Below, in pieces: positions 19,265-55,058 of a DNA stretch of 64,000 nucleotides. The stretch is taken from positions 661,501 through 725,500 of the forward strand of contig NZ_CP051630.1 of the NCBI RefSeq assembly GCF_012848855.1, given 5' to 3'. The number at the start of each line of letters is the position of its first letter. The stretch's first letter is position 1. Origin of the DNA: Pyruvatibacter mobilis (GTDB lineage: Bacteria; Pseudomonadota; Alphaproteobacteria; CGMCC-115125). The position numbers and the translations under genes are program-made. The notes under the pieces are model-generated. The model ran no database searches, had not been told where the DNA came from, and saw nothing but the letters and a program-made list of their open reading frames with translations.

Positions 19265-19630
<366 letters not shown>

Positions 19631-19688
19631 TTTGTTTCCCCACTTGTTGATGCGGAGCGACACGCCTCCGCAAACCCTTACTCGCATA

Positions 19689-19757
19689 CCCTCCGGCTTG
19701 ACCGGAGGGCCCATCTGACCCTCGACCTCTCATAGGCCCTCCGGTCAAGCCGGAGGG
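19689..19757. repeat. Intergenic palindromic element with two A modules
   Basis: A perfect CTTGA-type A module (19689-19709) and a perfect TCAAG-type A module (19737-19757) are separated by CCATCTGACCCTCGACCTCTCATAGG. AGCGGA follows at 19760. This is the first of seven repeat elements in the gene-free stretch 19631-21339. Confidence 0.8.
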
Positions 19758-19805
19758 CAAGCGGAGATTGGGGGGCAATGTAGGCCGCGCACATTCCCGC
19801 CCCAT

Positions 19806-19860
19806 CCCCCTCACCCGGTGCTGACGCACCGACCTCTCCCCCAGGGGGGAGAGGTGACTT
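19806..19860. repeat. Intergenic repeat family C, copy 1
   Basis: Starts CCCCTCACCCGGTGCTGACG and ends GGGGGGAGAGGTGACTT. It contains the internal inverted arms CCTCTCCCCC and GGGGGGAGAGG. Closely matched copies lie at 20858-20913 and 54693-54748. Confidence 0.75.
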
Positions 19861-19883
19861 TGCTCACGCCCACACCCGCGTCG

Positions 19884-20018
19884 CCCCGGACTTGATCCGG
19901 GGCCCACTCGCTTTGGCTGTTGAGCACAGGATGCGCGGCACCCTCCGTGCCATCCCCACTTGCGCTGCGGCAAGCGGCCCCGAGAGTAGACCCTCCGGTC
20001 AAGCCGGAGGGATACGGA
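19884..20018. repeat. Composite element B-core-A, copy 1
   Basis: The left B module (CCCCGGACTTGATCCGGGG, from 19884) joins a core that starts CCCACTCGCTTTGGCTGTTG and ends GAGAGTAGA. The right A module (19991-20011) and GATACGG follow. The same core recurs at 20665-20801 and 20939-21067 and, inverted, at 48855-48984. Confidence 0.8.
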
Positions 20019-20043
20019 TGATCTTTCATCCCCCCATTTGTCA

Positions 20044-20125
20044 TTCCGCGACTTGATCGCGGAATCCAGGGCGGACCGCTCAGGCCTTGCCGTGGAACTC
20101 TGGACCCCGCGATCAAGTCGCGGGG
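20044..20125. repeat. Inverted pair of B-variant modules
   Basis: TTCCGCG-ACTTGAT-CGCGGAA (20044-20064) faces CCCCGCG-ATCAAGT-CGCGGGG (20105-20125). Both keep the ACTTGAT/ATCAAGT centre of the B module with different GC arms, which suggests compensatory change. Confidence 0.7.
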
Positions 20126-20640
20126 TGACACGGTGGGGGGAGTGAGGTGGATGGCACGCACCCACACCGAACCCTCCGCACACGGCATGGCCGTCACGGG
20201 CATAGGGGAGAGCAGGACGCGCCCGGCGCTCACGCGGCGCCGGTGGAGGCAACGAACAGATTTGGGTCGCAAGCATCAGGCGCGTCCCGCGCGGATGGCT
20301 GCCAGCGGTGGCCGGACCGGGGCGGGGCAGGCATTACCCTGCGTGTCCAACCCCGCGAACCCTGCTTCCACCCTCCACACTTTGGAACGGGCCTGGACGC
20401 GGTGGGGCCAGCTTTTTCAGGGCGTGACCGGGTTCGGGACACCACCACCCATGTAATGCGCACCCGTTACTTGCGCATCGCGGCCAAACGCGCGCACCCC
20501 ACGTTCCCAAGGGGCCGCCTCTCGCCCAACCTTCCGGGCATCCGCCCTCCCACCCAGGTCCGGCCGGCCCGGCTGCCCGTGTGGCGGGAGGTCATGGGAT
20601 GAGTATGCGGCAGGTGGCAGGGGCCGGGGAAAACTCACCC
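20126..20640. other. Non-repeat orphan block without a recognisable gene
   Basis: About 500 bp between repeat clusters. Open frames exist on both strands but show no family motif, no ribosome binding site and proline/arginine-rich composition typical of chance frames in GC-rich DNA. Notable local features are GGTGGGGCCAGCTTTTTC near 20401 and CCGGGTTCGGGACACCACC near 20430, which could pair (GGTGG with CCACC). A structured RNA or decayed gene is possible, but I cannot identify one. Confidence 0.3.
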
Positions 20641-20664
20641 TCATACCCTCTCAAACTCCCGCAG

Positions 20665-20801
20665 CCCTCCGGCTTGACCGGAGGGCCCACTCGCCTCCGC
20701 TGTTGAGCACAGGGTGCGCGGCTCCTGCCGTGCCGGTTCCGCTCATGCTGCGGCAAGGGGCACCGAGAGTAGACCCTCCGGTCAAGCCGGAGGGATACGG
20801 T
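20665..20801. repeat. Composite element A-core-A, copy 2
   Basis: This has the same core as 19884-20018 (CCCACTCGC...GGCTGTTGAGCACAGG...GAGAGTAGA), but its left module is A (CCCTCCGG-CTTGA-CCGGAGGG, 20665-20685) instead of B. The right A module is at 20774-20794 and is followed by GATACGG. Confidence 0.8.
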
Positions 20802-20857
20802 TGATTTTTGAAATGCCCCTTTGTCATTCCGTCGCTTGATCTCGGATGCCAGAGCAT

Positions 20858-20913
20858 CCCCCTCACCCGGCGCTGACGCACCGACCTCTCCCCCAGAGGG
20901 GAGAGGTGACTTT
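20858..20913. repeat. Intergenic repeat family C, copy 2
   Basis: Starts CCCCCTCACCCGGCGCTGAC and runs through CCTCTCCCCC-AGA-GGGGAGAGG to GTGACTTT. It differs from copy 1 at only a few positions. Confidence 0.75.
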
Positions 20914-20938
20914 GCTCATTCCCTTGCCTTTTCCGTCA

Positions 20939-21067
20939 CCCCGGACTTGATCCGGGGTCCACTCGCATTGGCTGTTGAGTACAGGGCAGGCGGTTCATGC
21001 TGTATCCACGCACGCTGCGGCAAGCAGCCCCGAGAGTAGACCCTCCGGTCAGGCCGGAGGGATACGG
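20939..21067. repeat. Composite element B-core-A, copy 3
   Basis: The left B module (CCCCGGACTTGATCCGGGG, from 20939) is followed by the core CCACTCGCATTGGCTGTTGA...GAGAGTAGA. A slightly diverged A module with centre TCAGG (21041-21061) and GATACGG close the element. The remaining 270 bp to the mraZ promoter is more AT-rich and contains the 12-bp palindromes GCCGTTAACGGC (21181-21192) and TTAACGCGTTAA (21277-21288). Confidence 0.8.
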
Positions 21068-21339
21068 AGGGGGGGAGGCAGGCGCAAACCCCGCACACTC
21101 CCGCCACCTCCGTCTCAAATCACCCGCACATTCCCGCCGCTTCCGCGTCAAATCACATGACAAGTGAATTGATGACTTCTGCCGTTAACGGCGGCGCGGC
21201 CCGTGTCCCGCCCGCTGTTCCCCCTTCGTTCCTTAATCTCTTTACGAAGCGTTAAACTCCCAAGGATAACAATGCCTTAACGCGTTAACTCTTTTCCGGC
21301 CAAGTGCCTGATAACGCTGAGTCAGGCAGGGTCAATTCG

Positions 21340-48827: not shown

Positions 48828-48854
48828 CGCAATGGCCTGTCCCCCTCACCGTAT

Positions 48855-48984
48855 CCCTCCGGCTTGACCGGAGGGTCTACGCTCATGACCCCTTGTCGAC
48901 GTGCGCGTGGCTGTGGCCATGCACCCGCCGCACGCTCCGTTCCCAACAGCCGAAGCGAGTGGGCCCTCCGGTCAAGCCGGAGGG
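48855..48984. repeat. Composite element A-core-A, inverted copy 4
   Basis: A perfect A module (48855-48875) is followed by the core in reverse orientation (GTCTAC at its start; CAACAGCCGAAGCGAGTGGG before the end). The second A module closes the element at 48964-48984. Read on minus, it has the order and core ends of the copies at 19884, 20665 and 20939, with a diverged middle. Confidence 0.75.
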
Positions 48985-49046
48985 ATGCGGGACGTGGGGG
49001 AAGGGGGTGGCAGGCAGTTTCTTAAGGCACCCGTGCTGCCCCTGGA

Positions 49047-54516: not shown

Positions 54517-54684
54517 GTGCCCGCCACCTCAGACAGACCCTCCGGTCAAGCCGGAGCGACAGCGGTGGAGGGGGCCGAGCTTTCATCCCCCTCTCCCCTT
54601 GCGGGAGAGGGAGGGGCCCGCTGCGTGAGCGGTGGGAGGGTGAGGGGGTGGGCGGTGTCCAGCACACCAGCCGCACAGGCCCGC
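54517..54684. repeat. 168-bp direct repeat, copy 1 (A module plus family D)
   Basis: Begins GTGCCCGCCACCTCAGACAG, includes an A module with decayed right arm (54538-54556) and family D (CTCTCCCCTTGCGGGAGAG through GTGAGCGGTGGGAGGGTGAG), and ends ACCAGCCGCACAGGCCCGC. The second copy is at 54868-55035. Between the uvrD and ClC genes (54412-55058) I see only repeats. Confidence 0.8.
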
Positions 54685-54692
54685 AAGCGCTG

Positions 54693-54748
54693 TCCCCCTC
54701 ACCCGGTGCTGCGCACCGACCTCTCCCTCCAGGGGAGAGGTGACTTTT
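54693..54748. repeat. Intergenic repeat family C, copy 3
   Basis: Starts CCCCCTCACCCGGTGCTGCG and runs through CCTCTCCCTCCAGGGGAGAGG to GTGACTTT. Same family as 19806-19860 and 20858-20913. Confidence 0.75.
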
Positions 54749-54774
54749 CCTGGGGCCGCATACAAATCCGCTTT

Positions 54775-54795
54775 CCCTCCGGCTTGACCGGAGGG
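54775..54795. repeat. Single A module
   Basis: A perfect CCCTCCGG-CTTGA-CCGGAGGG, preceded by CAAATCCGCTTT and followed by CCCATGGGAGG, as in the A-A elements, but with its partner lost or provided by the A module of the next repeat. Confidence 0.8.
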
Positions 54796-54867: not shown

Positions 54868-55035
54868 GTGCCCGCCGCCTCAGACAGACCCTCCGGTCAA
54901 GCCGGAGGGAAAGCGGTCGAGGGGGGCGGAGCTTTCATTCCCTCTCCCCTTGCGGGAGAGGGAGGGGCCCGCCGCGTGAGCGGTGGGAGGGTGAGGGGGT
55001 GGACGGGGCTCATCACACCAGCCGCACAGACCCGC
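54868..55035. repeat. 168-bp direct repeat, copy 2 (A module plus family D)
   Basis: Begins GTGCCCGCCGCCTCAGACAG. The A module is perfect (54889-54909), family D spans about 54940-55002, and the copy ends ACCAGCCGCACAGACCCGC. It has the same length and order as copy 1, with scattered substitutions. Confidence 0.8.
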
Positions 55036-55058
55036 CACCACGCCACCCGGCAGCAGGC

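Follow-up and report, generated by a model that had tools for sequence, protein, structure and literature searches.

Head-to-head REP dimers of the CGTC type have probably expanded in the genome of Pyruvatibacter mobilis, with dimers of mixed composition (B/A) arising as hybrids through exchange at REP edges. We analysed a window of 64,000 nucleotides (G000:C1:661501-725500) from this 3.33-Mb, single-contig genome and followed its repeats across the whole genome and into three congeners. Judged from their sequence, the copies in the window are intergenic head-to-head dimers that fit the CGTC-REP superfamily. Module mixing within them is real, but hybrid REP pairs have already been described.

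REP modules and composite copies

All frequent modules in the genome are palindromes built around a CTTGA loop, and their stems fall into four types, CTCCGG (A), CCCGGA (B), CCGCGA (C) and CCCGGG (D). The fuller stems are CCCTCCGG for A, ACCCCGGA for B and ATTCCGCGA for C, with the CTTGA loop throughout. Perfect CTTGA palindromes number 159 in the genome, against 1 for a reversed control pattern; the census combined genome searches with about 205 kb of targeted stretches, and part of the 159 were counted without their context. Sixty-four head-to-head dimers contain 128 of the 200 modules, and there are 10 head-to-tail neighbours. Head-to-head spacings are discrete, at 42-48, 52, 60-62 and 103-110 bp; the core class has the widest of these. 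Tags differ by module (most commonly CCGTC for B, YGTC for C, and CGYA or CGCT for A), as do tails (YCCACT or CCTACT for B, TCCAG for C, and YCCA or TCTA for A).

The palindromes are strongly clustered along the genome. Among the 41 listed 5-kb clusters, 20 fall within the 417 kb between 526 and 943 kb (scan p 0.0002), and the interval 0-526 kb has none (p 0.003). Because parS sites are located at 2.925 Mb, the clustering bears no simple relation to the origin.

In the window, the sequence-only reading had described three copies with a common core and a right A module, the left module being B in copies 1 and 3 and A in copy 2. These positions were correct and the arrangement lies far above chance, with 17 A-type palindromes against 0.05 expected and 7 B-type against 0.36. 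A fourth, inverted A-core-A copy, placed by the same reading at 48855-48984, is indeed present there. Core identity among the window copies is 77-86%, and the core of copy 2 is identical to that of a copy at genome position 3016423. Copy 3 has a core of 82 nt, 5 nt shorter, and a single loop change (TCAGG) in its right A module. The left and right ends of the copies are mutual inverted repeats (CCGYAT-palindrome-YCYACTCKC).

Table 1 Positions of REP copies and associated features in the window.
Feature	Position	Strand	Composition or evidence
rnpB, RNase P RNA class A, left neighbour	19268..19630	+	Rfam RF00010, 319 bits
REP array, ~1.4 kb, between rnpB and mraZ	19680..21080		Missing at the locus in G001 and G003
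Short A-A head-to-head REP dimer	19689..19757		48-bp spacing class
E element (CCCTCACCC...GGGGAGAGG)	19803..19871	+	Half of ~200-bp repeat s1; repeat clustering
Copy 1, hybrid dimer	19880..20017	+	B REP, 87-nt core 19904-19990, A REP
C-C REP dimer	20040..20131 (approx.)		Tag TGTC, stem ATTCCGCGA, loop CTTGA, tail CCA
Multicopy 476-bp element (s3), intergenic, separating copy 1 from copy 2	20173..20640	+	Repeat search
Copy 2, homodimer	20659..20800	+	A REP, core 20687-20773, A REP
Copy 3, hybrid dimer	20932..21067	+	B REP, core 20959-21040, A REP
B palindromes of copies 1 and 3	19884-19902, 20939-20957		
A palindromes of copies 1-3	19991-20011, 20665-20685, 20774-20794, 21041-21061		
Inverted A-core-A copy	48849..48990	-	~20 bp past ligA stop; between convergent ligA and M24 peptidase gene

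The distance from the end of rnpB to the next conserved block, upstream of mraZ, is 1610 bp here and approximately 159 bp in congeners G001 and G003, whose rnpB-mraZ interval contains no CTTGA palindrome. Because this 159-bp interval is palindrome-free in both relatives, the array was either gained in this lineage or lost from both congeners, and gain is the simpler account.

The 476-bp element within the array occurs in seven copies in the genome, with 92-95% identity and long invariant stretches. It has no match in Rfam or Pfam, part of it is retained in congeners at ~73%, and it may be a mobile element or an RNA that has so far gone unrecognised. Elsewhere in the window, a ~200-bp repeat (CCCTCTCCCC...GGGAGAGGG, then CCCTCACCCGGTGCTGCGCACCGACCTCTCCC) is found at ~54558-54775 and 54910-55040. 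This repeat is present in at least 34 places, mostly beside or between tail-to-tail A palindromes.

Exchange of modules at REP edges

Matches to the 87-bp core number 35 in this genome; the three congeners have 1, 1 and 4, the G002 assembly among them being 81% complete. The 29 full-length cores carry A/A (19), B/A (9) or B/B (1) ends; D/D occurs on one diverged core copy, and two more left-A copies are cut off inside the core. When core-flanking modules were tabulated genome-wide, all 62 were clear-cut and none was intermediate, each lying 0-2 mismatches from A, B or D. Within this genome the junctions are thus sharp, and the gradual change from A to B that the sequence-only reading had named as its refutation does not appear. 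In a second core class, spaced at 60 bp, the left module is B and the right one is B, D or A. Congener G003 has one B/A copy and one A/B copy, the latter on a weak core match (E 0.008).

The case for exchange draws on individual comparisons of paralogous flanks, the overall breakpoint count being dominated by short repeats and set aside. To the right of the 476-bp-element copies at 2075093 and 3015894, the flanks match at 96.5% for 520 bp, as far as the final base of an A palindrome at its inner edge. Past this shared palindrome the flanks diverge, leading into a 52-class dimer at 2075600 in one case and the core copy at 3016423 in the other. To the left of the 476-bp element, B/A and C/C dimers alternate ahead of a common flank, and layout strings reveal the same spacer types reassorted between different REPs. 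PHI analysis of cores without flanks pointed to recombination in the recent core group (p = 0.01) and gave a non-significant result over all cores (p 0.73); runs that took in the flanks, which were unaligned, were set aside. On the core tree, which is poorly resolved, the B label requires 5-8 changes across bootstrap trees, and B copies form two groups, one of them within A copies; one B clade nevertheless passes the AU test (p-AU 0.083).

Taken as sequence comparisons, these results support exchange with breakpoints at REP edges. Given the poor resolution of the core tree and its compatibility with one B clade, we accept exchange without a count of swaps. The nine B/A copies may reflect few underlying swaps, and copies 1 and 3 need not be independent events. 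The sequence-only reading, which argued for exchange of a whole palindrome at a fixed junction and not simple divergence, thus holds in part. Sharp junctions, flanks that switch spacer at the inner REP edge, and the second core class all favour it. Separate swaps behind copies 1 and 3 are less certain, given an upstream linker common to several B/A copies and the p-AU value. As for divergence, stepwise stem change may still lie behind the origin of A and B themselves.

Exchange could operate as follows. Each end is a complete hairpin in itself, its CTTGA loop being fixed, and REPs would act as short shared joints for recombination or gene conversion between dispersed dimers. What is exchanged would be one end module or all the sequence lying past it, and copying of whole larger units (REP dimer - 476-bp element - REP dimer) would follow. 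In a hybrid dimer, a single long hairpin of the A/A type would no longer be possible. Points against this explanation are the single B clade, the all-core PHI result, the intermediate stems in G003, the tag of A, and the absence of a dissemination enzyme from our searches.

An unlikely alternative is that B/A is an old element type, formed once and copied whole by transposition or segment duplication, with no ongoing module exchange. Four B/A copies with the same upstream linker, several of them within one larger repeated unit, and the unrejected B clade are all consistent with this history. The repeated B changes in bootstrap trees and the split of B copies into two groups count against it, as do the alternation of B, D and A in the second core class and the co-occurrence of B/A with the weakly matched A/B copy in G003.

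We regard as quite improbable that A turned into B, or B into A, in place through stepwise compensatory stem change. The constant loop, the single stem pair that separates D from B, and stems in G003 that are intermediate by single-pair steps (e.g., CCCCGGCTTGACCGGGG and CTCCGACTTGATCGGGG) would suit such a path, but the 62 core-flanking modules here include no intermediate, and the B module alters stem, tag, and loop-adjacent pair jointly.

Folding and mobility

Under DNA folding parameters, A/A dimers form a single long hairpin with 23-29 end-to-end pairs (mean -50.3 kcal/mol). B/A dimers average -36.6 kcal/mol, and seven of nine fold as two hairpins with 0-6 cross pairs. That the core dimer encodes a structured RNA (a small RNA or riboswitch) with terminator hairpins at its ends is a very remote possibility: A/A copies are indeed much more stable than shuffled sequences (z -6.6 and -7.1), but this stability stems from the end palindromes, the core alone being no more stable than shuffles (z -0.14) with no consensus pairs over 33 cores, and the copies match no bacterial Rfam family. 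The RNA structure for which the sequence-only reading had suggested a check is not borne out as a conserved fold of the core. Rfam matches to eukaryotic microRNAs fell below cut-offs and are chance matches on palindromes.

Searches for Y1/RAYT transposases (PF01797) returned none in the genome and three congeners, with positive controls in E. coli and Caulobacter, and this absence rules out RAYT mobilisation by a resident Y1 transposase. Target-site duplications of 2-9 bp at 20 A/A dimers did not exceed those of shuffled pairs, which counts against a MITE of a DDE transposon. No plasmid matches were found.

Relation to known REP systems

CGTC-tagged REPs are found mostly in alpha-Proteobacteria and have an unpaired CGTC (or TGTC, CCTC) tag at one end, 8-9 bp stems, 4-5 base loops, and CCA tails; they form head-to-head dimers, commonly heterodimers, around conserved spacers whose ends are complementary (Di Nocera, De Gregorio and Rocco 2013, PMC3733652). 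They lack a dedicated transposase, and their describers called the mode of spread open; hybrid dimers between REP families were described for the GTAG REPs of S. maltophilia (PMC3733652). The modules here are alike in that A, B, and C all have stems in the 8-9 bp range and the 5-base loop CTTGA, an unpaired tail of CCA consensus is present, head-to-head dimers predominate, no dedicated transposase accompanies them, and the host is alphaproteobacterial. B and C fit the superfamily, and A, the dominant module, fits except for its tag, which is CGYA or CGCT and not CGTC. The copies differ in having a conserved 87-bp core among their spacers and different stem types on the ends of one core, and clusters are frequent here but rare in the published set (PMC3733652).

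REPINs are inverted REP doublets of ~100 bp or longer that fold into hairpins (Bertels and Rainey 2011, PMC3116915). Our copies share with them the two inverted REPs, the spacer, and the hairpin fold, but their outer ends have no GTAG or GTGG tag. Because no Y1 transposase was found in this genome or in congeners, assignment to REPINs is excluded. RIME elements of Rhizobium are intergenic mosaics of palindromes and spacers. The same description applies to BIMEs of enterobacteria (PMC2817692, PMC2573895). The likeness of the copies to BIMEs and RIMEs, as mosaics of palindromes and spacers, is one of description.

CTTGA palindromes occur in 62 of 144 alphaproteobacterial genomes. No other named genome yielded the exact A-core junction; matches to the A palindrome by itself come mainly from Robiginitomaculum MAGs and Hyphobacterium. 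A literature search for the palindrome letters as typed returned no match. Palindrome pairs with unequal stems were seen in G058, G144, and G035, from unrelated alphaproteobacterial families (e.g., CTCCGACTTGATCGGAG and CTCGGGCTTGACCCGAG at 61 bp).

More speculatively, CTTGA-loop REPs might be cut-and-join sites, at which a host activity recognising the loop or hairpin reassorts spacers and end modules and so permits spread without a transposase; we consider this a doubtful extension of exchange at REP edges. The genome is suited to testing recombination against transposition of CGTC REPs because it combines many copies, a locus that is array-free in close relatives, the lack of a Y1 transposase, and paralogous units whose differences all lie past a REP. 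Hybrid ends offer a natural test of whether heterodimers escape long-hairpin cleavage.
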